Source of the DNA: an uncultured Prevotella sp.
GTDB lineage: Bacteria; Bacteroidota; Bacteroidia; Bacteroidales; Bacteroidaceae
Assembly: GCA_900320905.1 (NCBI GenBank)
Contig: ONTZ01000019.1
Location: 1 to 51,479, forward strand
Length of the DNA stretch: 51,479 nucleotides
Direction: 5' to 3'
Numbering within the stretch: the first letter of the stretch is position 1; every line of letters begins with the position of its first letter. The notes beneath the pieces were generated by a model. That model worked only from the letters and a program-made list of their open reading frames with translations. It had not been told where the DNA came from and did no database searches. Positions 1 to 48,419 of this stretch are shown here, piece after piece. Made by a program: the position numbers and the translations under genes.

Positions 1-1
1 C

Positions 2-142: not shown

Positions 143-146
143 CTAG

Positions 147-322
147 GGCAGTTGGCAATGGCCGTGGCCAGCCACAATGCTCCAACCCATACGGTCGCCA
201 ATACCAAAGGACTTCCAGACTTCCTTCGCAGCCTTGGCAGAGACGAGCATAGAGCCGTCAGCCAGCCACTCGTAGTCAGGATTGCCAAGCAACAGGAGAG
301 CACGCGGACAGACCTTCAAGAA
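147..322 (-). pseudogene. Fragment of a CE15 glucuronoyl esterase gene
   Basis: On the minus strand this stretch reads VCPRALLLLGNPDYEW and ends near IVAGHGHCQLP. It is clearly homologous to the region around the catalytic histidine of the intact CE15 gene at 3504-4712, but diverged at many positions, so it comes from a paralogue rather than a recent copy. It covers only about 58 codons. It starts abruptly at VCPRA and stops abruptly after QLP, with no start or stop of its own. It is inverted relative to the VapE fragment on its left. Confidence 0.75.
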
Positions 323-380
323 CATCGGTTTCCCTGGTAACGATGTCATCCGCAAAGAACTGGAAGCAGCAAGTAAGTAA
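315..380 (+). pseudogene. Unassigned 3' gene tail
   Basis: A short plus-strand frame reads FKNIGFPGNDVIRKELEAAS and ends in tandem AAG TAA codons at 378-380. It looks like the natural C-terminus of a protein whose body is missing, because the upstream sequence is the inverted CE15 fragment. I do not recognise the family. It is the third scrap in the mosaic at the left end. Confidence 0.35.
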
Positions 381-4712: not shown

Positions 4713-4717
4713 ACTTC

Positions 4718-6940: not shown

Positions 6941-6943
6941 TTC

Positions 6944-6971
6944 AATATTTCAATTTTACAATTCTTCAATT
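6944..6971. repeat. Degenerate octamer tandem repeat between the two GH10-CE1 genes
   Basis: The 32-base spacer consists of about four imperfect copies of an eight-base unit (TTCAATAT, TTCAATTT, TACAATTC, TTCAATTT). It also contains the translation start region of the downstream gene, so copy number could alter spacing. No function can be read from it. Confidence 0.5.
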
Positions 6972-6972
6972 T

Positions 6973-11435
<4,463 letters not shown>

Positions 11436-13403: not shown

Positions 13404-13407
13404 TTTA

Positions 13408-29777: not shown

Positions 29778-30737
29778 TTACTTGCCTGCACGGACAGCGT
29801 TGAGGAAGTTAACCATCTTCTGGAGGTTAGCCTCATCGTACATACCCATGCCGTGTCCCCCCTCGGGAACAAAGGTAGCCTCAGTCTTTACACCAGCAGC
29901 CACCAGTTTCTCGTAGAACATCTTACCCTGACAGCAAGGAACGACATTGTCCTTCTCACCGTGGAAGATGATGATGGGAGGATCGTTCTTATCGACATAG
30001 TAGGTAGCACTCAAACTACGGTACTTGTCTGGCTCCTTGGCAAGTTTGGAATCCAACAACACATCCTCAGGGCTGTTCTCGCCCATCTTCATGCCCTCAC
30101 CGCAGTCCATCGCTGTGAGATCCACAGGACCTGACCAGTCGCAGGCGGCATTGACGCTGCTGCTCTCATTGGCATAACAACCGACAGTACCCTCCAAGTC
30201 GATATCCACTGTGCCGACCTTTGTCTTTTTCAGACCACTGGTGGTAGCCGTCGTAGAAGAGAGATGACCACCAGAAGAAAAGCCGCTGGTAGCCACAAAC
30301 GACGGGTCGAACTTATACTTCTTTGCCTCACCACGCACGAAGCGTATGACGGCACGGATGTCGTGGATCTGAGCAGGCCACTTGGCATCCATACTGCTGC
30401 GGTGATTCGGACAAACAACGGCATAGCCAGCCTTCAGCAGAGCATTCACGATGGTACCGAGGTCGGCGGCACCCTTGCTGTTATTGCTGAACCAAGCACT
30501 GCCATAGATATGTATTACGACGGGATAGGAAGCCTTCTCTTCCTTCGGCAGGTAGATGTCACAGGTATGATAGGCCTGATCGTCGCCGGCATAGTTTACA
30601 TCCTTCCATTCCTGGGAGGTTTCCAGTTTCACCTGTGGACGCTGGAAGCCACCAAAGCCTCCGAAGCCACCTCCAGGCTGTGCCATCACCACTGCGGAGA
30701 GACACAGCATCACTGTTGATAATAAAGTCTTTTTCAT
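29778..30737 (-). CDS. Secreted alpha/beta hydrolase, BD-FAE/acetylxylan esterase-like
   Basis: A 319-residue secreted esterase: signal peptide ending VMAQ, then a glycine/phenylalanine-rich stretch (PGGGFGGFGGFQRP), then an alpha/beta hydrolase domain. Visible elements are VVIHIYGSAWFSN (oxyanion region), TSGFSSGGHLS (nucleophile Ser), FHGEKDNVVP (Asp region) and VPEGGHGMGMYD (His). It resembles the Bacteroidetes-type feruloyl esterases and small acetylxylan esterases. It is the last gene of the operon starting at 37764, 39 bases after the GH3 gene. Feruloyl versus acetyl specificity is not decided by the sequence. Confidence 0.8.
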   Translation of the reverse strand: MKKTLLSTVMLCLSAVVMAQPGGGFGGFGGFQRPQVKLETSQEWKDVNYAGDDQAYHTCDIYLPKEEKASYPVVIHIYGSAWFSNNSKGAADLGTIVNALLKAGYAVVCPNHRSSMDAKWPAQIHDIRAVIRFVRGEAKKYKFDPSFVATSGFSSGGHLSSTTATTSGLKKTKVGTVDIDLEGTVGCYANESSSVNAACDWSGPVDLTAMDCGEGMKMGENSPEDVLLDSKLAKEPDKYRSLSATYYVDKNDPPIIIFHGEKDNVVPCCQGKMFYEKLVAAGVKTEATFVPEGGHGMGMYDEANLQKMVNFLNAVRAGK

Positions 30738-30776: not shown

Positions 30777-33104
30777 TTACTCCACTGTACTCTCTGAGAA
30801 ATAGAACTCTCTCAACGGCTTGCTGACCAGATCTCCCTTCAGGGTGACCTGCTGCTGCAGGCGGATATCCTGCGAGGAGGCTCCCACCTTCACGATGAAC
30901 GAGCCGGGACGGACAATCCAAAGGCGCTTGCCGTCGTTGGTATAGAAACCGAACTGCTCCGTATAGAGTTTCACCTTCACCGTCTTGGTCTGTCCCGGAT
31001 CAAGGCTCACACGAGCAAAGCCCTGCAACTGTATCGGACGGATTTGCTGATCATCGGCAGTTGGCGAGAGATAGATCTGCACGATCTCATCGGCAGCCAT
31101 CTGACCCGTATTCTTCACCTCGAAGGAGAGATTGATGCTTTGGTCGGCTGTTGTTGCGGCACTGTCTACTTTCAGGCTCTGATAGTCAAAGGTCGTATAG
31201 GCCAGACCATAGCCGAAGGGCCATGCGACACGTGGGTCTTTCTCTGCCTGATAGTTATAGCACAATGGCTCGTAGACCTCCGTATTCGGATAACTGACGG
31301 AGAGTTTTGCCGACGGCGACACCTTGCCATAAAGGATATCTGCTACGGCGTTACCACCCTCCTCGCCCGGATACCAGGCCTGGATGACGGCAGCACACTG
31401 CTCGGCAAGTCCAGAAACCACCTGAGCACGACCTCCGAACATCACCAGCACTACAGGCTTACCCGTAGCCAATAGTTCCTTCACGAACTGTTCCTGCTTG
31501 CCAGGCAGACGGAGGCCCTTGCGGTCACGGTTCTCACCGCAGAGCATCACATTCTCACCCACAGCGGCAATGATGACATCAGCCTGCTTCGCCAGTTTCA
31601 GGGCATTGGCCTTATCAGCCTTCTCGCCAGAGTCCACCTTCCTGTGCAGGAGTTCATACTCCCAGGCACGTGCATCACCCAGTTCACCATATTTCGTCTC
31701 AATTTCCTCCGTCCAGTCACAGCCACGCTCATACATCAGGTTCACACCCTCAGGAACCTTGGCTTTCATACCCTCCAAAAGCGTAATGGTGTGGGGATGG
31801 TCGAGGTCATCCTGTACCCGTTTCCAGAAGTACGACATGGCAGGGAAGGAATAGTCGCCTAACATCGCCCACATCGTGTTGGCATTAGGCCCCGTCAGCA
31901 GGATATTCTTCGCCTCTTTCAGAGGAAGGACACCATTATTCTCCAAGAGCACCACCGACTGGGTGGCGATGTCGTAGGCCGTCTGACGCTCCTCAGGTGT
32001 GTCGAGGGTAATCTGTTCGGTGCTATAGAGATAGCCATCCTTGTCGAAGAGTCCCGCACGGAACTTTATACGAAGCACGTTCTTTACAGCCCGTTCCAAC
32101 ACCTCCTGCTTCACCAGTTCCTGATCAATAGCATCTTGCAGGAACTTATAGTTGGCACCGTGAGGGAAGTCCACATCGTTGCCATTATTGATGGCAGCGG
32201 CAGCCTTCTGAACTACAGAGTCGAGGCCCGGAATCTGGTCGATGGCGGTATAGTCGCTCACCACCATCCCGTCGAAGCCGACATAGTCGCGCAGGATATC
32301 CTGGAGGATCTCACTGTTGCAGACACATCGTGTACCGTGTACATCATGATAGCCCGGCATCACCGCCACACTCCCTGTCTTGCGAATCATCGTCTCGTGG
32401 GGCAGGAGAATCTCTTCCATCAGTTCCTTCTCCTCGGCATCACCGCCTCCGCCGTAGCCGAGATAGTGCTTCGTGCAGGCACCCACACCTTTCTTCAAGT
32501 CACCCTGTTGCAGTCCCTTCACAAAGGCCACACCCATCGCGGCAGAGAGATAGGCATCCTCGCCATACGACTCTTCCAGACGGTTGAAACTCGGTGTACG
32601 ACACACATCCACCATCGGCGAGAGAGCCAGCACGCCACCCATCTTTCGCATAGCGGTACTCGTCTGACGGGTCTTCAACTCCGCCAGAGCAGTATTAAAC
32701 GAACCCGCCTGTCCGATCTGTTGCGGATAGATGGTAGAGCCTTTCGTATTGATACCCGACAACACCTCCTCGTGGAAGAGAGCCGGGATACCATTGGGAG
32801 TGTTATGCATCAGCCAGTCCTGCACCGCCACCACCTTATCACGGATATCGTTGGGGTCGCGAGGCTTTTGCAGGGCAAACTGTGAGAAGTGTCCGATACC
32901 ATAGGGAATCAGTTCACGGCATTTCGCCGTGTCGAGGTTTCCCGCCTCGTCGAAGAGTTCATCCATATACATACTCCTCAACTGTGCGATGCGTTCTTCC
33001 TGTGGCATCTTCTGGTAGAGTTCGTCAATCTGCTGTTCCAGGTCCGGACCAGCCGTACAACCTGCCAATAACGCAGTCACACTTATCATTACCAATTTCT
33101 TCAT
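30777..33104 (-). CDS. GH3 beta-glucosidase/beta-xylosidase lipoprotein
   Basis: A 775-residue GH3 enzyme with a lipoprotein signal (VTALLAGCTAG). The N-terminal barrel contains FHEEVLSGI, SPMVDVCRTPSFNRLEESYG, CTKHYLGYGGG and the nucleophile Asp in GMVVSDYTAIDQI near residue 280. The second domain has LLTGPNANTMWAMLGDYS and the third is fibronectin-like (VKNTGQMAADEIVQIYLS). The gene sits 6 bases after the CE6 gene, in an operon with sugar transport and oxidation genes. Releasing xylose from xylo-oligosaccharides at the cell envelope is the most likely role, but GH3 members with beta-glucosidase activity look alike. Confidence 0.87.
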   Translation of the reverse strand: MKKLVMISVTALLAGCTAGPDLEQQIDELYQKMPQEERIAQLRSMYMDELFDEAGNLDTAKCRELIPYGIGHFSQFALQKPRDPNDIRDKVVAVQDWLMHNTPNGIPALFHEEVLSGINTKGSTIYPQQIGQAGSFNTALAELKTRQTSTAMRKMGGVLALSPMVDVCRTPSFNRLEESYGEDAYLSAAMGVAFVKGLQQGDLKKGVGACTKHYLGYGGGGDAEEKELMEEILLPHETMIRKTGSVAVMPGYHDVHGTRCVCNSEILQDILRDYVGFDGMVVSDYTAIDQIPGLDSVVQKAAAAINNGNDVDFPHGANYKFLQDAIDQELVKQEVLERAVKNVLRIKFRAGLFDKDGYLYSTEQITLDTPEERQTAYDIATQSVVLLENNGVLPLKEAKNILLTGPNANTMWAMLGDYSFPAMSYFWKRVQDDLDHPHTITLLEGMKAKVPEGVNLMYERGCDWTEEIETKYGELGDARAWEYELLHRKVDSGEKADKANALKLAKQADVIIAAVGENVMLCGENRDRKGLRLPGKQEQFVKELLATGKPVVLVMFGGRAQVVSGLAEQCAAVIQAWYPGEEGGNAVADILYGKVSPSAKLSVSYPNTEVYEPLCYNYQAEKDPRVAWPFGYGLAYTTFDYQSLKVDSAATTADQSINLSFEVKNTGQMAADEIVQIYLSPTADDQQIRPIQLQGFARVSLDPGQTKTVKVKLYTEQFGFYTNDGKRLWIVRPGSFIVKVGASSQDIRLQQQVTLKGDLVSKPLREFYFSESTVE

Positions 33105-33110
33105 TTTCTA

Positions 33111-34496
33111 TCAGACACCTTTTAGGCTGTAAAAACTGAAATACATGGGATCGTCATACTTTGCGGGAGAGGCATCTTGCAGATATTTGCCAGTACCCAC
33201 ATTCAACAGTGAGAAGCCTTTGCCGCTGACATATTCGATCTTCCAGACGGCACCATCCTTGATGTCCTGTCCGTTCTGGTTATTCAGGCCAAGGATGAAA
33301 CTGCACCATCCATCAACAGGCTGGGAGTTCAGATAACCGGGACTACCCCAGATATTGTACTCGCTGCCATCTGGTGTGATGCCCCGCAACAGGTAGTTGC
33401 TGCCAGACTTTTCCAGACGGAAACTGAGTACGGCATTGGTCTTCTGCAGAGCCACGGAGAGGGCATCATAGCCCAGGTTCTGATTGTCGGAACCGAAGAA
33501 GGCCTTATCAGAAGCCTCGTTATAGATAGCCACCGGTGTATTGCCTATCTTATCCAGGCTGGTAAACTTCTTGTCAAGGGCATACGCTGAGGCAGGCTTG
33601 GTAGGCTCGTCTATCTGCGCCTCAATGCCCAACACCTTCAAGGCAGCCTTGGCATAACGCTGCCCCATGATACGATAGCCCTGCGCCGTGAAATGCAGGC
33701 CGTCACCCTTCTGCGGACAATCGGCAGAAGAGATGACATACGAATTGGGAATGACATTGGGCACCTTGGCGATGACGCTGTTATGATGCCAGCAGGCACC
33801 ACCAGCAGCCTGGCTAACCGTCTCACCCACAAAGAGGGGTACTTCCTCGGGATTGAGGTTCAGGTCATTCATCAGACGGTCGTAGATGAGTTTCACCTTC
33901 TTCGGCCAGTCCTGCTGACCATTATTGGTCTCACCCTGGTGCAGCAGAATACCTTTGATGACACCCGTCTCCTGGGCAATCTTCGCCATATCAACCAGAC
34001 GCTTGTACGGGTCATTATTATAGGCTTTGAAATAGTTCTTCAACCAGTCGGCAGCCGTCTTGATATAAGCAGGAGTCTCTTCCTGTATAAATCCCTTGAT
34101 ATCTGTACCACCGAGAGCCACATCCACGACACCCACCTTCACATTCTCAGGCAGGTTCGCCACCATCGTACGTCCGAAATAGTCGGCCATACCCAGTCCT
34201 GTACCCTGACGGACCAGAGGAGGTGTGGCGGTATACCACTCCCCCATCTTACGCTTGGGGCTGGAAAAATCCACACAGGCCAGCATCTGGAAACGCGGAT
34301 CCACCGTCTTGTCCTGTGCCTCTGGGGTGGCATTACCCTCCATGTTCGACTGTCCGAAACAGAGATAGACGTAGAACTGAGGCTCATCCTTCGGATCCTC
34401 TTCCTGCTCTTCGGGGTTCACGGGGAAGTCTTCATTAGAACAGGCGGTAAAGCCCATTGCCAATGTCACTGCAAATAAAAGAAATAGTTTTTTCAT
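33111..34496 (-). CDS. CE6-type acetyl esterase lipoprotein
   Basis: A 461-residue lipoprotein (MGFTACSNED) with an SGNH esterase domain at about 45-300: [44 protein letters not shown] and GDGLHFTAQGYR. These blocks match the N-terminal domain of the CE6-CE1 protein at 9288-11318, so the two are paralogues. A C-terminal domain of about 150 residues (KFTSLDKIGNTPVAIYNEA to YSLKGV) is not recognised and may be a ligand-binding beta domain. Expected to remove acetyl groups from xylan fragments. It lies 28 bases after fucP and 6 bases before GH3. Confidence 0.85.
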   Translation of the reverse strand: MKKLFLLFAVTLAMGFTACSNEDFPVNPEEQEEDPKDEPQFYVYLCFGQSNMEGNATPEAQDKTVDPRFQMLACVDFSSPKRKMGEWYTATPPLVRQGTGLGMADYFGRTMVANLPENVKVGVVDVALGGTDIKGFIQEETPAYIKTAADWLKNYFKAYNNDPYKRLVDMAKIAQETGVIKGILLHQGETNNGQQDWPKKVKLIYDRLMNDLNLNPEEVPLFVGETVSQAAGGACWHHNSVIAKVPNVIPNSYVISSADCPQKGDGLHFTAQGYRIMGQRYAKAALKVLGIEAQIDEPTKPASAYALDKKFTSLDKIGNTPVAIYNEASDKAFFGSDNQNLGYDALSVALQKTNAVLSFRLEKSGSNYLLRGITPDGSEYNIWGSPGYLNSQPVDGWCSFILGLNNQNGQDIKDGAVWKIEYVSGKGFSLLNVGTGKYLQDASPAKYDDPMYFSFYSLKGV

Positions 34497-34524: not shown

Positions 34525-35802
34525 TTATCTTTTTGCCGTCCGCATGCCATAGATGAACACCACAAGGAAACAGAACAACGGCAGGACGAAAGAAAAGTTC
34601 GTGGCGGGGAAATCGCCGAATACCGTACCCTGGTCGATGATCATCGCCTGCAACGGCGGTAGTACCGAGCCACCCAGGATAGCCATGATCAGACCGGCAG
34701 CACCGAACTTCGCATCGTCGCCCATCCCGTCGAGGGCAATGCCGTAGATAGTGGGGAACATCAGTGACATACAACCACTGACGCACACCAGACAATAGAG
34801 CCCCATGCGGTTCTGGAAGATGATGACACCTAATGTGAAGATCATCGCTAAAACGGCGAAGGCTGCCAACAGCCTGGCGGGCTTCACCCAGCGCATGAGG
34901 AAGGTGGCGATGAAGCGCGAACAGATAAAGAAAAGCATCGCATAGATATTAAACTGCTGCGACAGAACCTCTGCCGCCTGCTCCTCCATACCCTCGGCCA
35001 TAAACACTCGCGTACCATATTGTATAATAAAGGTCCAGCACATGATCTGTGCACCCACGTAGAAGAACTGGGCCACCACCCCTTCACAATAGTGTGGCAG
35101 AGAGAAGATACGTTTCAGGGTAACCATGAAATGGATGTCGTGGCTCTGGTCGGCGTTCTTCGGCATCTTCGTGAAGAGGATGATGAGGAACATCACCACA
35201 ATCACCAGTCCGATGGCGAGGTAGGGTGAGATGAGCACATCGAGGTCGGCATTCTTAATCGCCTCAAACTGCGCATCGTCCAACAGCGCCCTCTCATCAC
35301 TGCTCATCGGGTTGAGTTTCGCCTGGATGAAATTCATCGCCACGAACATACCGATGATGGAGCCACAGGGGTTGAAGCACTGCGCCAGGTTCAGACGGCG
35401 CGTGGCGGTCTCCGGCTCTCCCATCGAGAGGATATAAGGGTTACAAGAGGTCTCCAGGAACGACAGTCCACAGGTCATGATGAAATACGACATCAGGAAA
35501 CAGCCGTAGAGTCCGATGCTCTTCGAGGGGAAGAACAGCAGGGCACCGGCAGCATAGAGCCCCAGTCCCATCAGCACACCCGCCTTGTAACTATATTTAC
35601 GGATAAAGATAGCAGCAGGCAGGGCCATACAGAAATAGCCGCCATAGAAGGCCATCTGCACCAGTGCCCCGTCGGTGACACTCATACGGAAGATCTTCGA
35701 GAAGGCCTTCACCATCGGGTTCGTGATATCGTTGGCAAAGCCCCACAGGGCAAAGCAGAACGTCACGAGGATAAACGGAACGAGGTAATTATTCTTTTTC
35801 AT
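34525..35802 (-). CDS. fucP: FucP-type sugar:proton symporter
   Basis: A 425-residue major-facilitator protein with about twelve hydrophobic segments and the FucP-type start (YLVPFILVTFCFALWGFAND). Other family features are FLETSCNPYILSMG and RRLNLAQCFNPCGSIIGM. E. coli FucP takes up L-fucose and also accepts L-galactose and D-arabinose. Here it is placed between an acetyl esterase and a dehydrogenase/lactonase pair matching an L-galactose pathway, so L-galactose is the substrate I would test first. It should sit in the inner membrane. It starts 31 bases after the dehydrogenase stop. Confidence 0.85.
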   Translation of the reverse strand: MKKNNYLVPFILVTFCFALWGFANDITNPMVKAFSKIFRMSVTDGALVQMAFYGGYFCMALPAAIFIRKYSYKAGVLMGLGLYAAGALLFFPSKSIGLYGCFLMSYFIMTCGLSFLETSCNPYILSMGEPETATRRLNLAQCFNPCGSIIGMFVAMNFIQAKLNPMSSDERALLDDAQFEAIKNADLDVLISPYLAIGLVIVVMFLIILFTKMPKNADQSHDIHFMVTLKRIFSLPHYCEGVVAQFFYVGAQIMCWTFIIQYGTRVFMAEGMEEQAAEVLSQQFNIYAMLFFICSRFIATFLMRWVKPARLLAAFAVLAMIFTLGVIIFQNRMGLYCLVCVSGCMSLMFPTIYGIALDGMGDDAKFGAAGLIMAILGGSVLPPLQAMIIDQGTVFGDFPATNFSFVLPLFCFLVVFIYGMRTAKR

Positions 35803-35821
35803 TTGCTTGTCCAGTAATCAC

Positions 35822-35840
35822 AATTACTAATTACTAATTA
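35822..35840. repeat. Heptamer tandem repeat at the dehydrogenase stop codon
   Basis: AATTACT AATTACT AATTA overlaps the TAG stop of the dehydrogenase gene and lies in the spacer before fucP. It is one of several seven-base tandem repeats in the window. Confidence 0.6.
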
Positions 35841-36853
35841 AACCTGACGAGGATACGGAACACCTTGCCGGGATTCTCCGCCCACTGCTGCATGGCCCAG
35901 GGAGCCTGCTCAGGCGATACCTCGTTACTAATCAGACGATCTACGGGACACGTCCCTCTCTCCAGATAATGTATCACAGCCCGGAAGTCACTGGGCTGGG
36001 CATTGCGCGAGCCGCGGATGTCGAGTTCCTTCTGCACGAAATACTTCGTCTGGAACGACACCTCTGTCTTGGCATAGCCGATACAGACCACCCGACCCGT
36101 AAAGGCCACCTCGTTGACAGCCATATTATAAGTGACAGGACTGCCCACTGCCTCAATCATCACATCAGGCCCGAAGCCACCCGTCATCTCCTGTAGTCGG
36201 GCATGCACATCCTCTGTCTTCGTGTTGATGGCATAGGTGGCACCCATCTCCTTCGCCAGTGCCAGTTTCTCATCGTCTATGTCAGCGGCAATGACGGTGG
36301 CACCACGCAGGGCCGAGCGAACGATGGCACCCATACCCACCATGCCACAGCCAATCACCACCACCGTGTCGATATCCGTCACCTGTGCACGGTTCACGGC
36401 GTGGAAACCCACACTCATCGGTTCTATCAGGGCACAGGTACGCGGATCGAGTCCTCCGGCAGGGATCACTTTCTCCCAGGGCAGGGCGATAAACTCCCGC
36501 ATGGCGCCGTTGCGTTGCACACCGAGGGTCTCGTTGTGCTCACAGGCATTCACCCGTCCGTTGCGACACGAGGCGCACTTGCCACAGTTCGTATAGGGAT
36601 TACAGGTCACCACCATCCCGGGCTTCAAGATCTCAGGCACATCGGCACCCACCTTTTCTATCACAGCACCAACCTCATGACCCGGTATCACCGGCATCTT
36701 CACCATCGGGTTCCTGCCGAGCCACGTGTTCAGGTCGGAACCACAGAACCCCACATAGGCGAGGCGCAGCAGCACCTCGTTGGCCTTCAATGCCTGTTCG
36801 GCCACACTCACTATTTCCATCTGGCGCTCACCAGAAATCTGAATTGCTTTCAT
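35834..36853 (-). CDS. Zn-dependent alcohol dehydrogenase, probable L-galactonate 5-dehydrogenase
   Basis: A 339-residue medium-chain dehydrogenase. The catalytic zinc ligands are in GFCGSDLN (Cys near 37) and PGHEVGA. The structural zinc site is the four-Cys NCGKCASCRNGRVNACEH. VVVIGCGMVGMGAI is the NAD-binding Rossmann loop. Its ATG overlaps the end of the lactonase gene by 4 bases (ATGA), and fucP follows. In Bacteroides vulgatus an enzyme of this class oxidises L-galactonate at C5 to D-tagaturonate, downstream of a dehydrogenase and a lactonase of the same types seen here. The enzyme class is certain; the substrate is inferred from that parallel. Confidence 0.82.
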   Translation of the reverse strand: MKAIQISGERQMEIVSVAEQALKANEVLLRLAYVGFCGSDLNTWLGRNPMVKMPVIPGHEVGAVIEKVGADVPEILKPGMVVTCNPYTNCGKCASCRNGRVNACEHNETLGVQRNGAMREFIALPWEKVIPAGGLDPRTCALIEPMSVGFHAVNRAQVTDIDTVVVIGCGMVGMGAIVRSALRGATVIAADIDDEKLALAKEMGATYAINTKTEDVHARLQEMTGGFGPDVMIEAVGSPVTYNMAVNEVAFTGRVVCIGYAKTEVSFQTKYFVQKELDIRGSRNAQPSDFRAVIHYLERGTCPVDRLISNEVSPEQAPWAMQQWAENPGKVFRILVRFN

Positions 36854-37764
36854 TCGCTCATATTCTTTATATATGGTAATACTTTCAAATCACGGAAACC
36901 GAAGAACCGTCGGGCATTCTCGCCTAAAAACAGCCGTTTCTCCCCGTCCGTCATCTCACTGCTCTTCACCACAAAGTCGTACGACATCTTATAGGTGATA
37001 GCGGTGATGGTACGGGGGTAGTCCGAGCCCCACATCAGTTTCTCCATCCCCACGGCGTCAGCCGCCTCCCTGATGGCGCGGATGGCTGAGGGGAAGGGAT
37101 AAAACTCATCGTTGAAGAGCCACGTGATACCGCCGCTCTCCACATAGACATTCTCGTGACGGGCCAACCGGATCTGACTCATCCAGTTCTCTCGCGTCAC
37201 CATCCCGAAATGCCCGATGGCGATTTTCAGGTTAGGACACTCTTGGATAATCTCCTCCATCTGTCCCACCTGGGCATCACCATCGGCCAGTTCGATACCG
37301 AGCAGGATGCCACGCTCTTCCATCAGGTGCATCATCTGCATCATCTCGTCGTTGAGGAACTGCCTCGGCAGCCGGGCGGCAGGCACCTTGATACCCTTGA
37401 AGCACTGCATCAGTCCGTCAGCCACACGCAGGAAGCCCGGCACACGGTAGTCGGCCATCCCGAAACAGAAGAAGCGGTCGGGATACTGCCGCTGCACCTC
37501 GGAAAGATAGTCGTTCTGCAGGCCGTCGATAAACTCCTGCGTCACCACTGCCGCCGCCACCTGGGCATAGTCCATATTTGAGAGGAAGCGCTCCGCCGTG
37601 TTCTGGCCGTCAGTCATAAAGGGCGGTAACATCTGTCGCTCCTCACCGAAAAACAGGCTTCTGCTCCGGTTGGGTTCCAACTGACAGATGCGTTGTCCGT
37701 CCACCGTCGTGTCTTGCGTCAGCCACAGATGGCTGTGCGCGTCAATGATATGAGGTTGGTTCAT
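36850..37764 (-). CDS. Amidohydrolase-family sugar lactonase, probable L-galactono/L-fucono-1,5-lactonase
   Basis: A 304-residue cytoplasmic protein without signal peptide. IIDAHSHLW at the start and MLMWGSDYPRTI-like sequence near residue 245 (KLMWGSDYP) mark an amidohydrolase-2/cog3618 barrel. IAIGHFGMV supplies the internal histidine. Cog3618 includes L-fucono- and L-galactono-1,5-lactonases. It is the first gene of a six-gene operon (lactonase, Zn-dehydrogenase, fucP, CE6, GH3, esterase) with a full promoter 27 bases upstream. The lactonase role is supported by the neighbours rather than by unique residues. Confidence 0.78.
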   Translation of the reverse strand: MNQPHIIDAHSHLWLTQDTTVDGQRICQLEPNRSRSLFFGEERQMLPPFMTDGQNTAERFLSNMDYAQVAAAVVTQEFIDGLQNDYLSEVQRQYPDRFFCFGMADYRVPGFLRVADGLMQCFKGIKVPAARLPRQFLNDEMMQMMHLMEERGILLGIELADGDAQVGQMEEIIQECPNLKIAIGHFGMVTRENWMSQIRLARHENVYVESGGITWLFNDEFYPFPSAIRAIREAADAVGMEKLMWGSDYPRTITAITYKMSYDFVVKSSEMTDGEKRLFLGENARRFFGFRDLKVLPYIKNMSE

Positions 37765-37790
37765 TTTGCAGAGTTATTCAATATCGGGTG

Positions 37791-37822
37791 CAAAGATATA
37801 TATATTTTTTTAAACAACCAAA
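37791..37822 (-). promoter_or_regulatory. Promoter for the lactonase-fucP-CE6-GH3 operon
   Basis: On the minus strand TTTG at 37822-37819 lies 20 bases upstream of TATCTTTG at 37798-37791. ATG 37764 is about 27 bases further. Confidence 0.68.
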
Positions 37823-37869
37823 AAAAACATGCTTACAAGGTGACACTCTGTGTGCAATGATAGTAGTAA

Positions 37870-38649
37870 TCATCTCTTCGTAATTTGCCAGGAGATGCCC
37901 GCAGCAATGCTCCAGAAACTTTTGAAGTCGTTCAGGTAGATGTCAGTGTTCACGTCTATCTGCACCCGACGTGACAACTGCCAGATAATTCCCAGTTCCA
38001 TCCAGTTATCATGGCTGTCGGGGTATTTGTAGTTGTACTCTTCGACCATCAGTTGCCATCGGTCGTTGAGAGTAAATCCCAGATTGGCCCCGTAGAAGAT
38101 GATGGGCTTTTCAGAATCGAACCATGTCAGATCTCCTTCGTAGCCAAGGGAGAGCCATGGCGTCAGTTGGTTCTGACAGAGAAGACCCATCTGGCCACTC
38201 CAATTGTTGGGCATATTGTTATTGCTGTTGCTTGGTATGATGACATTGCCTAACAATGAAACGGCGGGCACGAACTTCCATCCATCAAAAAGTTTGGCCT
38301 TCGCACCGATGGCCACATTGTCCGATCCGCTATAATCGAAAATATCACCGCCCTCATTGTTCCAGTCGCCCTGCAGGCGCAGTTCAGCATAGTCAGAGAT
38401 TCCAAAACGAAGGAGTGTGGTGTTCAACGTCCAAATGTATGACTTAGTACCATTCTGTCTGACTTGTTGATAGCCCATTCCCATTTCCCACTGCAATCGT
38501 CCTTTAGGCAGCACATCAGGACCTGTGATTACTCCTGGCCGGTCAGCCGTGAATCCTGCCTCCTCGCTCTGGGCCAAGACCGAGAGTGGAAGAAAGGATA
38601 ATAATATAGCGATAACTCCCCAAAAAGCCAAATATAATTCTTTAGTCAT
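37870..38649 (-). CDS. Outer-membrane beta-barrel protein, transporter family (PF13557-like)
   Basis: A 259-residue secreted protein. The signal peptide (AFWGVIAILLSFLPLSVLAQ) is followed by GFTADRPGV, a sequence typical of small barrel proteins annotated as phenol-degradation-type transporters. The rest alternates hydrophobic and polar residues in short strands ending in W/Y/F (LQWEMGMGYQQV, AELRLQGDW, AGISWQI), as expected for a 10-12 stranded barrel. I chose ATG 38649 because the -7 box at 38672-38679 would fall inside a frame begun at 38715. The cargo is unknown. It is upstream of, and in the same direction as, the lactonase operon, which has its own promoter. Confidence 0.72.
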   Translation of the reverse strand: MTKELYLAFWGVIAILLSFLPLSVLAQSEEAGFTADRPGVITGPDVLPKGRLQWEMGMGYQQVRQNGTKSYIWTLNTTLLRFGISDYAELRLQGDWNNEGGDIFDYSGSDNVAIGAKAKLFDGWKFVPAVSLLGNVIIPSNSNNNMPNNWSGQMGLLCQNQLTPWLSLGYEGDLTWFDSEKPIIFYGANLGFTLNDRWQLMVEEYNYKYPDSHDNWMELGIIWQLSRRVQIDVNTDIYLNDFKSFWSIAAGISWQITKR

Positions 38650-38671
38650 GTAACAGTCAATATTGATGTTG

Positions 38672-38679
38672 CAAAGATA
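38672..38679 (-). promoter_or_regulatory. -7 element for the beta-barrel gene
   Basis: The minus strand carries TATCTTTG, a perfect -7 match about 22 bases before ATG 38649. No clear -33 partner. Confidence 0.5.
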
Positions 38680-38808
38680 CAAAATAATGCCAAGATTGTT
38701 CATAAGACAGCACATTTTTACACATTATTTAATAAAAGGGATTTGGGTGACTGTCTTCGTTTTTTAAAGATTTTCTGATTTTTTTACACGAATCTCGAAA
38801 AAAAACTG

Positions 38809-38816
38809 TATATTTG
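38809..38816 (+). promoter_or_regulatory. -7 element immediately before the sensor pair
   Basis: TATATTTG is a -7 match ending only 8 bases before ATG 38825. The transcript start should fall at about 38820-38825, so the message would be leaderless or nearly so. A T-rich stretch, but no exact TTTG, lies at the upstream distance. Confidence 0.5.
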
Positions 38817-38824
38817 CCGCTGAT

Positions 38825-40198
38825 ATGTCTAAAGTTACTACGTTTATCGCCAAGACCCTGTCGTTTAGGCTCAGTCTGAGAATCATCGCCGCCTTGGCGC
38901 TGTTGCTCATGCTGGCGCTGGTGACGATGTTCTATTTCTCGCGTAAGGCTGTGAGGGAAGAAGCCCTGCAGAATGCCGGGCAGACCCTGGAGGCGATGGT
39001 GGAAAACATTGACAATGTGCTGCTGAGCGTGGAGCAGGCAGCAGGAAACATCTACTGGAAGATGTTAGGCAAAGCCAACAAGCCAGAACTCATGGAAATG
39101 TATGCCCACAAACTCATGGAGTGCAATCCCTACATTATGAACAGCCGGATTATCTGGGATGTGGACAGCAATAAGGTGCAGGCCGTCGCCCAGTGGACGA
39201 CACCACCCAAGGTGGACAGCGACAAGGGCGATGCCGTGGTGACCTTCAGCCTGCCTTTCTACGACAAAGAGCAGAAGATGAACGTGCTGGCCATCGACGT
39301 GTCGCTGGCACTGCTGTCAAAGATCGTGCTCGAAGAGAAACCCTCGCCCAATTCCACCTGTGCCCTGTTAGCAAAGGACGGCACGGTGATTGTCTATAAC
39401 AAAAGCGACATGCTAGACCAGAACCTGATTACACTGGCAAAGAAATACTACCACCCTTCGGTGATTGAGGCAGCGGAGGCGATGCTGGCGGGTGAGACAG
39501 GCTATAAGAAAATGATACTGCACGGGAAGAACTGCTACGCCTTCTACAAACCCTTCAAGCAGGCCGAGGTGACGGGACGTGCCATGACAGACCTGGGATG
39601 GAGCGCAGGTATCATCTATCCAGAAGAGGATATCTTCGGCAGTTACAACCGGCTGGTATGGACGGTGCTTATCATCGCCGTTGTGGGACTGGGACTGCTG
39701 TTTGTGCTCTGCCGGCTCTTCATCCACCACCAACTGCTGCCCCTCAGACGACTCGGAAGGTCGGCACAACTCATTGCCGAGGGACAATACGTGGAGCCTA
39801 TACCCGAAAGCAAGCACCTCGATGAGGTGGGACGCCTGCAAAACCATTTCCACGCCATGCAGCAGTCGCTGGCCCAGCACATGCAGGAACTGCAACAGTT
39901 GTCCGACACCCTGAAGGAGCGAGGCGAGGTGCTGCAGGATGCCTACGAGCAGGCGCAGGGTGCCGACAGGATCAAGACGAACTTCCTTTATAACATGTCG
40001 GATCAGATGAAGGCACCCGTCAGCAGCATCCTGCAAAGTGTCAGGACCATCAGTCAGCACGGCAGTGAACTGACGGACGAGGACACCAACAAGATCGTAG
40101 ATGATATCATGCGGCGCGGAGAAAAGGTGACGGCGTTGTTGAACCAGTTGATTGCAGACTCGGAGAAACTGGAAGTGAGAAGTGAAAAAAAAGAGTGA
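38825..40198 (+). CDS. Membrane sensor with degenerate histidine kinase domain (pseudokinase)
   Basis: A 457-residue sensor. A first membrane span (about 16-38), an extracytoplasmic Cache-like domain (about 39-275), a second span (about 276-300), a HAMP linker (LLPLRRLGRSAQLIAEGQY), a coiled coil and a truncated dimerisation domain. The block that normally carries the phosphorylated histidine reads LYNMSDQMKAPVSSIL, with Asp (near 392) where SHE or SHQ is expected. The protein ends without any ATP-binding domain. It overlaps the downstream full kinase by one base, and the two share architecture, which suggests duplication followed by loss of catalysis. A partner or decoy role in a heterodimer is inferred. 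Confidence 0.8.
   Translation: MSKVTTFIAKTLSFRLSLRIIAALALLLMLALVTMFYFSRKAVREEALQNAGQTLEAMVENIDNVLLSVEQAAGNIYWKMLGKANKPELMEMYAHKLMECNPYIMNSRIIWDVDSNKVQAVAQWTTPPKVDSDKGDAVVTFSLPFYDKEQKMNVLAIDVSLALLSKIVLEEKPSPNSTCALLAKDGTVIVYNKSDMLDQNLITLAKKYYHPSVIEAAEAMLAGETGYKKMILHGKNCYAFYKPFKQAEVTGRAMTDLGWSAGIIYPEEDIFGSYNRLVWTVLIIAVVGLGLLFVLCRLFIHHQLLPLRRLGRSAQLIAEGQYVEPIPESKHLDEVGRLQNHFHAMQQSLAQHMQELQQLSDTLKERGEVLQDAYEQAQGADRIKTNFLYNMSDQMKAPVSSILQSVRTISQHGSELTDEDTNKIVDDIMRRGEKVTALLNQLIADSEKLEVRSEKKE
40172..40186. repeat. GAAGTGA heptamer repeat at the pseudokinase C-terminus
   Basis: GAAGTGA GAAGTGA encodes part of the C-terminal LEVRSEKKE. The same heptamer forms a longer array at 44467-44526. Confidence 0.5.
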
Positions 40199-42108
40199 TG
40201 CGTAGAATCATACAATATATCAGACGGTCGCTTTCCCGGAAACTCAGTCTGGGAATCCTGCTGATGGCCATACCCATCTTCATGCTGTCGATAGGCATCC
40301 TGTTCCAGCAGTCGAAAGAGCAGTTGAAGAAGGAGGCGACGAAGCATGCCAGCAGTGTGCTCAACACCACGATGCAGCACATTGACCGGTACATGAACAT
40401 CGTGGAGACCGCTACAGACATCAACGACTGGGAGGTGACTGCCCACCTGGATCCCGACTCAATACTGGCCTACTCACGCTCCATCGTCATGCTCAACGGG
40501 CAGATCGACGGCTGCTCCATCAGTGCTGAGCCGAACACCTTCCCAAAATATGGCAGGAACTTCTCGGCCTATACCGTCAGGGAGGGAGACAGCGTGACCA
40601 CCGTCATAGAAGAACCGTATGAGTACTTCGAAAAAGTATGGTACAAGACACCGCACCTGTATGGCAAGCCCTGCTGGGTGGTGTACTACGACGAGAGCGA
40701 CTCACTGGAACTGACCCTCGACGGGATGATTGCCTCGTACGGCAAACCCCTCTACGATGCCGACAAGCATTTCGTGGGTGTCATCTCCTCCGACCTCTCA
40801 CTGATACGCCTCTCGAAGATCATCACGGCAGAGGTGCCCTACCCGGACTCTTACTTCGTGATGACTGGCGAGGAAGGACGCTACTTCGTGCATCCTGACT
40901 CCACACAACTCTTCACGCATACGATCTTCAGCGATGCTGACCCGCAGCAGAATGCCGACATCTTTGCCCTGGGACACGAGATGACCACAGGCAAGGAGGG
41001 CAGTATGAGCGTCAGGATCGACGGCAAGCCATGCCTGGTGTGCTACCAGCCCGTGCCTGGCACACCGTGGAGCCTCGCACTCGTCTGTCCCGAATGGAGC
41101 ATCCTACGGGGCTATCACCGTATGAACTTCATCATCGGCCCGCTCATCATCCTCGGGCTGCTGTTCATCCTGCTGTATTGCAGCGTCACCGTAACACATG
41201 CCATCCACCCGCTCAACCGACTGACAAGCAAGGTGCAGCGTATTGCCGAGGGACACTATGACGAGCGCATCAAACAGAGTAAATACAACGATGTGGTCGG
41301 ACGCCTGCAAAACACCTTCGCCACCATGCAGGAGTCACTGAGCCAGCATGTGGCCGACATCAAGCAGATGAACGAAGAGACGGCACGGCGCAACGAGGAA
41401 TTGGTGCGTGCCAGTGAGATGGCGAAGGAAGCCGACCGGCAGAAGACGCTGTTTATCCAGAACGTGTCGCACCAGATCCGTACGCCCCTGAACATCATCA
41501 TGGGCTTTGCACAGGTGATGAAAGAAAGTAAGGGTACACTGCCGGAAGAGGAAACCAAGAGCATCACGGACATGATGAAGCATAATGCCATGATGCTCCA
41601 CCGTATGGCGCTGATGCTCTTCGACAGTTCGGCCAGAGGCACCATCGAGGAAATATATGCGGACAAGAACGATGAGGTGATCTGTAATGAGGTGGCCCGC
41701 AAGAGCATCGCCGCCATTCAGGAGCAATATCCGGAGATACCTATGCGCTTCTCGTCGGACGTGCCCGACGATTTCTGCATCACCACCAATCGCACCTACC
41801 TGAGAAACAGCATCCGTGAGATACTCTACAATGCCGTCAAATACTCCGACGGACAACACATATCCTTGCACGTCAGTGAGGCGGGGTCGAAGATCCGCTT
41901 TATCTTAGAGGATACGGGCCCGGGCATCGCCGAGGAAGAATGTAGTCACCTGTTTGAGATGTTCACGAAGGTGAACGACCTCTCAGAAGGTCTCGGACTA
42001 GGACTGCCATTAGCCAGACGCCATATCCGAAACCTCGGCGGCGACCTCCTCCTCGACCTCGACTACCACAAGGGCTGCCGCTTCATCATCGAAATACCGA
42101 AGGTATAG
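40198..42108 (+). CDS. Membrane sensor histidine kinase
   Basis: A 636-residue kinase from ATG 40198; GTG 40195 would add one residue and give a 4-base overlap with the upstream gene. Order: span (about 16-36), Cache-like extracytoplasmic domain (about 37-300), span (about 305-330), HAMP (HPLNRLTSKVQRIAEGHY), coiled coil, dimerisation domain with phosphoacceptor His in IQNVSHQIRTPLN near 425, and ATPase domain with REILYNAVKYSDG (N box), LEDTGPGIAEEE (G1) and GLGLGLPLARRH (G2). All catalytic boxes are intact. No response regulator gene is adjacent and there is no fused receiver domain, so the target lies elsewhere. The sensed ligand may be a sugar from the neighbouring pathways, which is only inference. 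Confidence 0.88.
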   Translation: MRRIIQYIRRSLSRKLSLGILLMAIPIFMLSIGILFQQSKEQLKKEATKHASSVLNTTMQHIDRYMNIVETATDINDWEVTAHLDPDSILAYSRSIVMLNGQIDGCSISAEPNTFPKYGRNFSAYTVREGDSVTTVIEEPYEYFEKVWYKTPHLYGKPCWVVYYDESDSLELTLDGMIASYGKPLYDADKHFVGVISSDLSLIRLSKIITAEVPYPDSYFVMTGEEGRYFVHPDSTQLFTHTIFSDADPQQNADIFALGHEMTTGKEGSMSVRIDGKPCLVCYQPVPGTPWSLALVCPEWSILRGYHRMNFIIGPLIILGLLFILLYCSVTVTHAIHPLNRLTSKVQRIAEGHYDERIKQSKYNDVVGRLQNTFATMQESLSQHVADIKQMNEETARRNEELVRASEMAKEADRQKTLFIQNVSHQIRTPLNIIMGFAQVMKESKGTLPEEETKSITDMMKHNAMMLHRMALMLFDSSARGTIEEIYADKNDEVICNEVARKSIAAIQEQYPEIPMRFSSDVPDDFCITTNRTYLRNSIREILYNAVKYSDGQHISLHVSEAGSKIRFILEDTGPGIAEEECSHLFEMFTKVNDLSEGLGLGLPLARRHIRNLGGDLLLDLDYHKGCRFIIEIPKV

Positions 42109-42111
42109 GCA

Positions 42112-43062
42112 TCAGGAGTTCTTCCACCTGACGAACATCTGGTCGCCGATGATCTCCTGCACCTCACCCACCAACTGCTCATCCATCGGCTCGTTCACGT
42201 AGTCAATGTTTTTCAGCACATTGTCAGGATTGGCACTGCTGAAAAGCGTCGTGGCGATACGCGGGTTCATACTGGTAGAGAACTGGATGGCGAGTTTCTC
42301 GATGGGATAGCCTTTCTCCTGACAATAGGCTGCCGCCTTGGCACAGGCATTCTTCAAGTCGCGGCCTGCGGGATGCCACATCGGGGCACCACGCTGCGAC
42401 AGCAGACCCATCGACAGGGGCGAGGCATTGATGACCCCCACCCCATGCTGCTCGAAGAAACCGAGATAGTCGGCAAGCAGGGTGTCGTTAAGACTATAGT
42501 GACAGAAGTTCAGGATACTCTCCACCACGCCGTCGTCGCAGTGCTCGATGACCCACTTCAGGTTCTCTGGCTGCAGGTCGGTGATACCCACATGACCTAC
42601 CACGCCCTTCTCCCGCAGTGCCACGAGGGCAGGCAGTGTCTCGTCGACAATCTTCTGCAAGCCGCCTTCCATAGCCCCCTGAAACTCGATGTCGTGTACG
42701 TTGATGAGGTCGATATAGTCCACGTTCAGGCGTTCCATACTCTCATAGACACTCTCCGTGGCCCGTTTCGCGCTGTAGTCCCACGTGTTCACGCCATCTT
42801 TGCCGTAGCGCCCCACCTTCGTAGAGAGGTAGTACTTGTCACGGGGAATCTCTTTCAGGGCCTTGCCCAAGACGGTCTCTGCCTTCAGATGACCATAGTA
42901 GGGCGACACGTCGATGAAGTTGATGCCGTTGTCAACGGCGACATGGACGGCACGGATGCCTTCCTCTTCGCGGATGCTATGGAAGACGCCTCCCAACGAG
43001 GAGGCACCGAAGGCGAGATTGGCCACCCGCATGCCAGTCTTTCCTATTTCATTATATACCAT
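42112..43062 (-). CDS. Aldo-keto reductase, probable L-galactose/L-fucose dehydrogenase
   Basis: A 316-residue cytoplasmic aldo-keto reductase. MVYNEIGKTGMRVANLAFG, SSLGGVF and FIDVSPYYGHLKAETVLG resemble plant L-galactose dehydrogenase and bacterial L-fucose dehydrogenases. The catalytic set is visible: Asp in FIDVSPYYG, Tyr in the same block, Lys in YLSTKVGRY and His in INVHDIEF. A longer frame reaches 43227, but its first 55 residues are Arg/Cys-rich read-through from the GH8 gene, so I chose ATG 43062. It starts 2 bases after the GH8 stop and thus belongs to the GH43-GH8 operon. With the lactonase and Zn-dehydrogenase it supplies the first step of an L-galactose pathway. Confidence 0.82.
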   Translation of the reverse strand: MVYNEIGKTGMRVANLAFGASSLGGVFHSIREEEGIRAVHVAVDNGINFIDVSPYYGHLKAETVLGKALKEIPRDKYYLSTKVGRYGKDGVNTWDYSAKRATESVYESMERLNVDYIDLINVHDIEFQGAMEGGLQKIVDETLPALVALREKGVVGHVGITDLQPENLKWVIEHCDDGVVESILNFCHYSLNDTLLADYLGFFEQHGVGVINASPLSMGLLSQRGAPMWHPAGRDLKNACAKAAAYCQEKGYPIEKLAIQFSTSMNPRIATTLFSSANPDNVLKNIDYVNEPMDEQLVGEVQEIIGDQMFVRWKNS

Positions 43063-43064
43063 AT

Positions 43065-44447
43065 TTATTTTTGTGGGGTAATGATACGGTAGTTGCCACT
43101 CAGGTGCATGAAGGCGAAGAGGCGCAGCAGACCGTCGTAATAAGCATCGAAATAGCCGTCCTCGAAGGGCACGTGCTTGGCATTCCACAGGGCATCGACA
43201 AACTCCTTGCTCTTGTCGTGGCTGCACAGCATAGAGGAAGCGGCAACGGTAGCCACCAGTCCGATACTGTGGCGCAGTTTACGGAAACCGCCAGCACCCA
43301 GGATCTCATTGCCCTCGGGGATGGAGCCGTCCTTACGATACTGGTCGAGGAAGGTATCGACACCCTGGGAATAGAAGAAGTTCTGGATCTTTTCGCCGTA
43401 CTGCCGCTGCCACTCACCGTCGGCACAACTCCACTCGTAGTCGAGGGTGATGTTCATCGGCACGCGCCAGGAGTCATAGCGGAAGTTATTGTTGCCATTG
43501 CGGGGAGGTGTCTGAGGCGCTCCGTTCTGCTGCTGACCCTGCGGTCTGCCGGGGAAACGGAAGCCCGCCATCTCCGAGCCATCAAACTGGCACTGGTCGC
43601 CATTCAGACCCGTCTTCTCGTCGGTAGCCTTATGCAGGAACTCACGACTCTTCTGGGCGCACTCTTTCCAGAAGTCGGCACGTCCGTCGTCACCCCATTT
43701 TGCCCAGACCTCGTAGAAGGCAGGGATATGATAGGAGGGGTCGGTATGACGCTGTCCGAAACCATCTGGTGTGAAAGTGATGAGTTTCGTCTCAGGGTCG
43801 ATGAGATACATCTTCTGTGGACCCTGTTGCTGCTGTCCGCCCCCGAAACCGCCAAAGCCGCCAAAGCCACCGCGCTGCTCGGGCTCGTATTCCTTCGGCT
43901 GGATGGCATTGAGGATGCGCTGGGCCTCAGCCTTGTAGTTGATGCCGGTATCATTGCCCCAGCGGTTGGAGGCAAAGAGGAGTGCCGTGATGAAATACAA
44001 CTCGCCGTCGCTGGCTGCACCTGGGGAGTTACGGGTACCGTCCGTCCGACAACTCCAGGCGAAGTAGCCCTCGCGGATGCCGTCCTGATGCTGCATATAT
44101 TTCTTCGTCCAGCGCCACAGACGGTCGAAGATATCCTTCTCATTAAACTGCACAGCCACCATCAGACCGTACGACATTCCCTCGGTACGGGCATCGTGGT
44201 TCTTGATGTCAGAGACATAACCCATCGAGTCGCCTACCTCGAAATATACCTTGTTGGGGCCACGGAACACATCGTTGAACACTTCCTTCAACTTCGCGTC
44301 GACATCGGCCTGCTTGTAGCCCATCTCCACGAAGAGGTTACGGTATTTACCAGTCTCAAAAGCACCCTTCTTCCAAGGGGTCAGTGCCATTGTCGGCACC
44401 GTCAGCAGCAGCATCACTGCCACAATCATTAATTTCTTCAAATTCAT
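43065..44447 (-). CDS. GH8 enzyme, probable reducing-end xylose-releasing exo-oligoxylanase
   Basis: A 460-residue secreted GH8 protein with an (alpha/alpha)6 barrel. The catalytic acid is in ARTEGMSYGLMVA, and GAASDGELYFITALLFAS and HSIGLVATVAA are also family blocks. Two insertions are low-complexity: GGFGGFGGFGGGQQQQGP (about 195-212) and PQGQQQNGAPQTPPRNGNNN (about 300-320). The signal peptide is MNLKKLMIV to TMAL. Bacteroidales GH8 enzymes in xylan loci usually release xylose from the reducing end of xylo-oligosaccharides. It lies 70 bases after the double GH43 gene and 2 bases before the aldo-keto reductase start. Confidence 0.85.
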   Translation of the reverse strand: MNLKKLMIVAVMLLLTVPTMALTPWKKGAFETGKYRNLFVEMGYKQADVDAKLKEVFNDVFRGPNKVYFEVGDSMGYVSDIKNHDARTEGMSYGLMVAVQFNEKDIFDRLWRWTKKYMQHQDGIREGYFAWSCRTDGTRNSPGAASDGELYFITALLFASNRWGNDTGINYKAEAQRILNAIQPKEYEPEQRGGFGGFGGFGGGQQQQGPQKMYLIDPETKLITFTPDGFGQRHTDPSYHIPAFYEVWAKWGDDGRADFWKECAQKSREFLHKATDEKTGLNGDQCQFDGSEMAGFRFPGRPQGQQQNGAPQTPPRNGNNNFRYDSWRVPMNITLDYEWSCADGEWQRQYGEKIQNFFYSQGVDTFLDQYRKDGSIPEGNEILGAGGFRKLRHSIGLVATVAASSMLCSHDKSKEFVDALWNAKHVPFEDGYFDAYYDGLLRLFAFMHLSGNYRIITPQK

Positions 44448-44466
44448 AATAATAACCCTATTTATT

Positions 44467-44526
44467 CACTTTTCACAATTTGCACTTCTCACTTTTCACT
44501 TCTCACTTCTAAACTTCTCACTTCTT
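44467..44526. repeat. GAAGTGA-type heptamer repeat in the GH43-GH8 spacer
   Basis: On the minus strand the unit GAAGTGA or GAAAAGTGA recurs about five times, interrupted once by GAAGTTTA. The GH43 stop codon TGA (44518-44520) is part of the array. No promoter or terminator is evident inside it. Confidence 0.65.
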
Positions 44527-48357: not shown

Positions 48358-48419
48358 CAAAATAATTAGGTAAAGATTACGATACTAAAATATATTTAAT
48401 AACCCAAATGATTTCAAGT

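Follow-up and report, generated by a model that had tools for sequence, protein, structure and literature searches.

BVU_0219, BVU_0220 and BVU_0222 of Bacteroides (Phocaeicola) vulgatus reportedly convert L-galactose to D-tagaturonate, a finding credited to Hobbs et al. 2014. The B. vulgatus genes follow one another in a four-gene order, BVU_0219 to BVU_0222 (PMC4555090); BVU_0222 is an L-galactonate dehydrogenase, BVU_0219 groups with known L-galactose dehydrogenases (L-GalDH), and D-tagaturonate is an intermediate in this species (PMC12632266). The release of L-galactose from complex xylan, but not its use, is described in the accessible part of the account of the polysaccharide utilization locus (PUL) PUL-XylL of B. 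ovatus (Rogowski et al. 2015, PMC4491172). Here, we analyzed a 51,479-base stretch of DNA from an uncultured Prevotella sp. (contig ONTZ01000019.1 of assembly GCA_900320905.1), hereafter the window, in which genes of a predicted L-galactose pathway lie among xylan-degrading genes. We consider it likely that this locus takes apart complex grass glucuronoarabinoxylan and consumes the L-galactose cut from it.

The same three types of enzyme as in BVU_0219-BVU_0222 are encoded in the window, along with a permease of the fucose type, and most relatives keep these genes together. Unlike in B. vulgatus, the reductase is set apart, each of the two resulting parts is linked with xylan genes, and the permease is of the FucP type and not one of the distant major facilitator superfamily (MFS) proteins of many relatives. 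With PUL-XylL, the locus shares GH10, GH43, GH31, GH97 and CE6-CE1-type genes, and a GH95 gene in the genome that resembles PDB entry 4UFC (PMC4491172). In contrast to PUL-XylL, its L-galactose catabolism genes are inside hydrolase operons, and no SusC/SusD match was found among the 25 window open reading frames (ORFs) scanned with Pfam, so the window is not classed as a canonical PUL. Luteolibacter sp. LG18 has a dual pathway for L-glucose and L-galactose that similarly runs via L-galactonate, D-tagaturonate and D-altronate, and its LguA groups with BVU_0219; however, most Lgu enzymes are described as distant from established enzymes that catalyse the same reactions, including BVU_0222, and the accessible part of its description makes no link to a polysaccharide (PMC12632266). 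Finally, BD-FAE, a feruloyl/acetyl xylan esterase (PMC8165983), belongs to the same Pfam family as one window esterase, which, unlike BD-FAE, is found in an operon with L-galactose catabolism genes. The L-galactose pathway and the complex-xylan system are thus each known, whereas their coupling looks new: catabolic genes inside hydrolase operons beside a putative feruloyl esterase were found in 3 of 119 operons so far, and our searches of an open-access library found no paper linking L-galactose catabolism to a xylan locus.

Four predicted L-galactose genes in two runs of xylan genes

The window spans contig C43 in full; the assembly amounts to 3.2 Mb and is 82% complete. Among the 80 loci retained, the nearest named relative is Prevotella sp. 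RGIG6054, which comes from sheep omasum and shows 97-99% identity in the four proteins. All four L-galactose genes are complete ORFs at the coordinates first proposed for them (Table 1), and they fall in two minus-strand runs. The first consists of the GH43-GH43, GH8 and L-GalDH genes, separated by 70 and then 2 bases. The second consists of the lactonase, Zn-dehydrogenase, FucP, CE6, GH3 and BD-FAE esterase genes, with gaps of -4, 31, 28, 6 and 39 bases, the first of these being a 4-base overlap of the lactonase and Zn-dehydrogenase ORFs. The set is therefore split: lactonase, dehydrogenase and FucP head one operon, and the reductase is the end of the GH43-GH8 operon. The sequence-only reading had these genes co-transcribed with xylan enzymes. 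The arrangement stands, with a shared strand and 2-70-base gaps to GH43-GH43/GH8 and to CE6/GH3/esterase, while co-transcription within each run remains a prediction from gaps and strand. The pattern TTTG-N18-22-TAnnTTTG, which we take to be the Bacteroidetes promoter consensus, has five matches in the window, against 0.32 expected. One precedes the lactonase, and the pattern scan of the window gave no exact match upstream of GH43-GH43. A sigma-70 and terminator scan yielded nothing informative.

The top PDB matches of the reductase are five distinct L-GalDH sequences at 253-487 bits, the highest being 7lh6, whereas the next chain scores 92 bits; a 310-residue comparison of 7lh6 with a Phocaeicola plebeius DSM 17135 protein shows no difference between the two. 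As assessed by these matches, the aldo-keto reductase belongs with the L-galactose dehydrogenases, in line with the resemblance noted from the sequence alone. We placed its start at the ATG at 43062, although a longer, GTG-started ORF extends to 43227 and overlaps GH8. Asp51, Tyr56, Lys82 and His123, presumably the catalytic tetrad, are conserved in 107 of 107 aligned relatives.

The putative lactonase, the Zn-dehydrogenase and FucP likewise match domain or family models (Table 1). In the lactonase, His10, His12, His185 and Asp248 are conserved in 115/115 aligned relatives and Lys126 in 86/115; a single-sequence PDB search gave 4i6k as sole match (29 bits), and a 24-sequence profile found no match among PDB sequences at 1e-10. 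The Zn-dehydrogenase has eight residues, which we assume to be zinc-site residues, that are conserved in 108/108 aligned relatives; no NCBIfam family scored above its cut-off among the 25 of 28 families listed.

Because FucP belongs to the L-fucose symporter family, the same genes could instead handle L-fucose, which is 6-deoxy-L-galactose, without phosphorylation; FucP would then import fucose, and nearby GH29, GH95 or GH141 enzymes would act as fucosidases. We regard this as very unlikely. All five top PDB matches of the reductase are L-GalDH, and the lactonase reaches only 22 bits on the NCBIfam L-fucono-1,5-lactonase model, below its cut-off of 400. The source genome gave no PF02952 match for an L-fucose isomerase, which would leave room for a different fucose route, although in an assembly that is 82% complete this absence counts for little in either direction. 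On the other hand, a FucI-sized frame (593-677 residues, 163-183 bits) is present in six of the nine operon-bearing relatives searched. Further evidence bearing on this alternative comes from the gene neighbourhoods.

Conservation of the set and its predicted onward route

Of 121 genomes in the family, 52 encode both the lactonase and L-GalDH at thresholds of 1e-15 and 1e-60, 2 encode just one of them and 67 encode neither. Among 119 lactonase operons, 108 contain the Zn-dehydrogenase, 104 L-GalDH and 99 both; a FucP or MFS gene is found in 60, and the exact order L-GalDH, lactonase, MFS, Zn-dehydrogenase in 37. The lactonase, Zn-dehydrogenase and reductase are one conserved set. In a mirror-tree analysis covering 68 loci, distance correlations between the three genes were 0.67-0.78, versus at most 0.12 in 500 permutations each, but it leaves species history in and hence shows little beyond shared descent.

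Ten of the 119 operons, corresponding to at most nine distinct contigs (L046 and L118 are one), also contain UxaB and UxaA, i.e. tagaturonate reductase and altronate dehydratase, suggesting that the pathway leads to D-tagaturonate. This product can be obtained only from a 6-hydroxy sugar, which argues against L-fucose. One of the ten is that of P. plebeius, the source of 7lh6, where a RhaM-type mutarotase, L-GalDH, the lactonase, an MFS permease, the Zn-dehydrogenase, a UxaB-like tagaturonate reductase and a UxaA-like altronate dehydratase follow one another. Judged by gene content, this order reads as a route from L-galactose to 2-keto-3-deoxygluconate. The source genome also has UxaB, on a contig other than the window (C47; 621 bits, cut-off 359), as well as UxaA (C62; 64% identity to the P. 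plebeius operon copy). The tagaturonate reductase that had been proposed as a check is thus present. Together, the L-GalDH placement, the conserved operon, the BVU_0219-0222 order and UxaB/UxaA support the earlier proposal of a B. vulgatus-type pathway, and the predicted L-galactose function holds across the family.

We compared the surroundings of 40 family L-galactose loci with 40 random 19.5-kb contig stretches from twenty of the same genomes; seven of these controls overlapped another, and counts were repeated with 33 controls. The RhaM, UxaA, GH29 and GH141 probes were picked after being sighted near operons, so that the tests were not blind and the following p-values flatter the proposed link: UxaA/UxaB were near the operon in 6/40 loci versus 0/40 controls (0/33 without overlaps, p 0.02), RhaM in 9/40 versus 0/40 (0/33, p 0.003), and GH29/GH95/GH141 in 9/40 versus 1/40 (1/33, p 0.016). 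GH29 and GH141 are "fucosidase" families, and the last result taken alone would equally fit L-fucose.

Some side observations concern these operons. A RhaM-family mutarotase is encoded in 15 of the 119 (L161:8621-9004 and 14 others) and is perhaps an L-galactose mutarotase. GH29 genes occur in 11 of the 119 (L122:6993-8633, L047, L065, L074, L076, L077, L081, L112, L128, L138 and L145), possibly as alpha-L-galactosidases within the fucosidase family, and GH141 genes lie near L-galactose operons in L095 (9481-11292), L099, L100, L105, L106, L115, L136, L137 and L155, in the last case inside the operon. In the draft genome of Phocaeicola sartorii (L140, 9007-11724), the L-GalDH and Zn-dehydrogenase frames are each in two pieces, through either a real frameshift or a sequencing error.

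The predicted alpha-L-galactosidase and the grass side chain

The sequence-only reading saw no GH95 gene in the window and suggested that the L-galactosidase either lies elsewhere or is one of the GH97 or unassigned enzymes. The first point holds and the second is favoured: the source genome has two GH95 genes, neither in the window, one of which is nearest to 2RDY and the other, on contig C57, to 4UFC (1015 bits; next match 650 bits, B. bifidum fucosidase 2EAE ∼290 bits). 4UFC is the characterized B. ovatus alpha-L-galactosidase, in which roles of Thr370, Asn372, Asn374 and Glu501 are described (PMC4491172). Counted along the printed alignment, the C57 protein keeps all four residues, although the Thr also occurs in other GH95 proteins and the match is not proof of an L-galactosidase. 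With such a gene in the genome, GH97 need not be an L-galactosidase, and GH95 is the likelier candidate for this activity.

The C57 gene is within a GH31-GH95-GH3 run. RGIG6054 carries this run contiguously with its counterpart of the left-hand part of the window, which comprises GH3, a glucuronoyl esterase, two GH10, CE6-CE1 and GH97, at 88-96% DNA identity. In the source assembly, the window and C57 have a common 73-base stretch (window 304-376), and adjacency of GH95 to the window is probable by analogy. The beginning of the window (1-376) resembles an assembly junction, 141-314 matching 3598-3771 at 80% and 304-376 matching C57 at 98.6%. Other relatives show comparable settings: GH95 follows GH43, CE6-CE1, GH10-CE1 and glucuronoyl esterase genes and precedes GH3 in Prevotella UBA4339, whereas in X. 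ruminicola Ga6B6 it is flanked by GH10-CE1 and GH3. A role of GH95 in a xyloglucan system, considered because of its position between GH31 and GH3, was downgraded in view of these relatives in xylanase runs.

The system probably acts on FAXG, a side chain found in grasses, and on its capped forms. FAXG is alpha-L-Gal-(1->2)-beta-D-Xyl-(1->2)-5-O-feruloyl-Ara, and FAXGG and FAXGX bear an alpha-D-Gal on the L-Gal and an alpha-D-Xyl, respectively (PMC4712305). BD-FAE takes ferulate off xylan pieces bearing this side chain (PMC8165983), and in B. ovatus, GH31 frees xylose from corn xylan, GH97 is active on pNP-alpha-D-galactoside and GH95 frees L-galactose (PMC4491172). The gene list, with GH97, GH31, GH95, GH3, BD-FAE and GH43, fits each bond of the three forms. 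In the proposed scheme, xylanases and esterases would open the xylan; in the periplasm, GH97 would remove alpha-D-Gal and GH31 alpha-D-Xyl, uncapping FAXG; GH95, encoded on the other contig, would free L-galactose; and GH3, the BD-FAE esterase and the GH43 enzymes would remove beta-xylose, ferulate and arabinose. Imported via FucP, L-galactose would be oxidized by the reductase to L-galactonolactone, which the lactonase would open to L-galactonate for conversion to D-tagaturonate by the Zn-dehydrogenase; UxaB and UxaA, from other contigs, would then yield 2-keto-3-deoxygluconate. The gene families, their layout, the conservation of the three-gene set and the presence of UxaB, UxaA and GH95 can be read from the sequence, whereas every substrate, cell location, co-transcription and co-regulation is conjectured from it. 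As assessed by eye, the N-termini of the hydrolases and esterases are signal-like and those of the three catabolic enzymes are not.

That GH97 itself is the alpha-L-galactosidase seems to us very doubtful. Relatives of the GH97 part of the window's GH97-carboxylesterase fusion (GH97CE-like) do occur in 9 of the 119 L-galactose operons, but the best PDB matches of this part are a chain named alpha-glucosidase, at 255 bits, and alpha-galactosidases, which score 174 and 170 bits. In B. ovatus, the activity described for GH97 is on an alpha-D-galactoside (PMC4491172), and, since FAXGG carries alpha-D-Gal on L-Gal, GH97 has another task on the same chain. A broader idea, which we put forward tentatively and think somewhat unlikely, is that the L-galactose operon serves as a marker of enzymes devoted to side chains that carry L-galactose. 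In that case, the fusion might be built for FAXGG: its GH97 half would uncap L-galactose or else cleave off L-galactose itself, an activity new to GH97, and the esterase half would remove ferulate or acetate from that chain. GH29 and GH141 elsewhere might be unrecognized alpha-L-galactosidases.

Xylan coupling in other genomes

Coupling of side-chain removal with L-galactose catabolism, as proposed from the sequence alone, gains support from RGIG6054, where the run with the 4UFC-like GH95 adjoins the window's xylanase genes, and from a matching arrangement in B. xylanisolvens. Strain XB1A of this species has a LacI gene and an operon of L-GalDH, lactonase, MFS and Zn-dehydrogenase, followed after 290 bases by a xylan PUL with the order GH43, GH3, GH43-like, GH31, GH97, GH43, SusC/SusD-type, GH10, GH5, CE6-CE1, GH43. 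GH95 and GH115 genes are found ∼38 kb from the L-galactose operon, and this GH95 aligns with 4UFC over all 811 residues (1882 bits). PUL 43 of XB1A is xylan-induced and includes GH95 and GH115, and L-galactose genes are not mentioned in the accessible part of its description (PMC4855328). From gene content, PUL 43 would be the XB1A locus beside the L-galactose operon. In B. reticulotermitis and Bacteroides sp. GM023, GH3 and GH43 genes adjoin the L-galactose operon, with GH95 33-40 kb on.

Several results weigh against the proposed scheme. In the neighbourhood comparison, xylan-type CAZymes were not significantly enriched near the operon (9/40 versus 5/40, one-sided p 0.19; versus 4/33, p 0.20), a CE6 gene together with a BD-FAE esterase gene is in the lactonase operon at just 3 of the 119 loci, of which two are closely related, and SusC/SusD matches are lacking, as stated above. 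In the source genome, GH95 is on another contig, and C57 continues ∼6 kb past the 73-base stretch common with the window, so that adjacency in this genome is a prediction; RhaM was not found in this 82% complete assembly. Alternatively, the pathway would be real but would draw its L-galactose from another source, be it pectin RG-II, algal galactan or shared sugar, and the position of its genes among xylan genes would be incidental. Most L-galactose operons indeed have no xylan enzyme, and porphyran contains L-galactose-6-sulfate (PMC12316285). We nonetheless find such an origin rather unlikely for the window, whose genes lie 2-31 bases apart from their neighbours inside two runs of xylan genes, whose genome encodes a GH95 nearest to the corn-xylan L-galactosidase, and whose pairing recurs, in other layouts, in UBA4339 (L163) and Bacteroides. 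In the absence of family-wide enrichment, xylan coupling is lineage-specific: the xylan embedding of L-galactose genes belongs to certain lineages.

The features of the window are compiled in Table 1. The CE6 label of the acetylesterase is our assumption, and the best NCBIfam model of the GH3 enzyme, beta-xylosidase/arabinosidase, scores 470 bits, below its cut-off of 1050. Between the two runs, on the plus strand (38825-42108), are two neighbouring genes for sensor-kinase-like proteins that carry dCache and HAMP domains; the first also has HisKA but gives no ATPase domain match in Pfam. Relatives of both adjoin the lactonase in L085, L159 and L163, and the pair is a candidate sensor for the L-galactose/xylan system. 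An outer-membrane-like protein (37870-38715, minus strand; Pfam Phenol_MetA_deg) is encoded 105 bases upstream of the lactonase, and a lipoprotein-like ORF of 657 residues (48408-50381, plus strand) has no Pfam match.

Table 1. Coordinates of the features discussed, numbered along the window
Feature	Position	Strand	Evidence
L-galactose dehydrogenase (aldo-keto reductase)	42112..43062	-	Pfam Aldo_ket_red; PDB matches
Putative L-galactono-lactonase (amidohydrolase superfamily)	36850..37764	-	Pfam Amidohydro_2
Putative L-galactonate 5-dehydrogenase (Zn alcohol dehydrogenase superfamily)	35834..36853	-	Pfam ADH_N, ADH_zinc_N
FucP-type sugar:H+ symporter, putative L-galactose importer	34525..35802	-	NCBIfam TIGR00885, 611 bits, cut-off 280
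Bacteroidetes-type promoter-like site before lactonase	37791..37822	-	TTTG-N18-22-TAnnTTTG pattern match; lactonase ATG at 37764
CE6-type acetylesterase, lactonase operon	33111..34496	-	Pfam SASA, 113 bits; 28-base gap
GH3 enzyme, putative beta-xylosidase, lactonase operon	30777..33104	-	Pfam GH3
BD-FAE family esterase, putative feruloyl esterase, last in lactonase operon	29778..30737	-	Pfam BD-FAE, 246 bits, cut-off 26.8
GH8 enzyme, 2-base gap upstream of reductase	43065..44447	-	Pfam GH8
Double GH43 with CBM6, first gene of run	44518..47406	-	Pfam GH43, two stretches; CBM_6, two stretches
GH31 enzyme, putative alpha-xylosidase	20163..22358	-	Pfam GH31
GH97-carboxylesterase fusion, putative side-chain uncapping enzyme	16803..20156	-	Pfam GH97 and COesterase
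Xylan run: GH43, GH97, CE6-CE1, GH10-CE1, GH10-CE1, glucuronoyl esterase	3504..15057	-	Pfam; gaps 4-54 bases

Since its predicted L-galactose genes are within gene sets that strip side chains, the cell, a rumen-type relative of Prevotella, can probably feed on the L-galactose that it removes from grass or corn fibre. The locus offers a testable answer, at the level of genes, to the fate of the L-galactose released from corn xylan, and it suggests that the operon beside the studied B. xylanisolvens xylan PUL serves the same purpose. Genes for L-galactose use could then help to predict which bacteria draw the full benefit from the fibre of maize and grasses, and could point to uncharacterized L-galactosidases.

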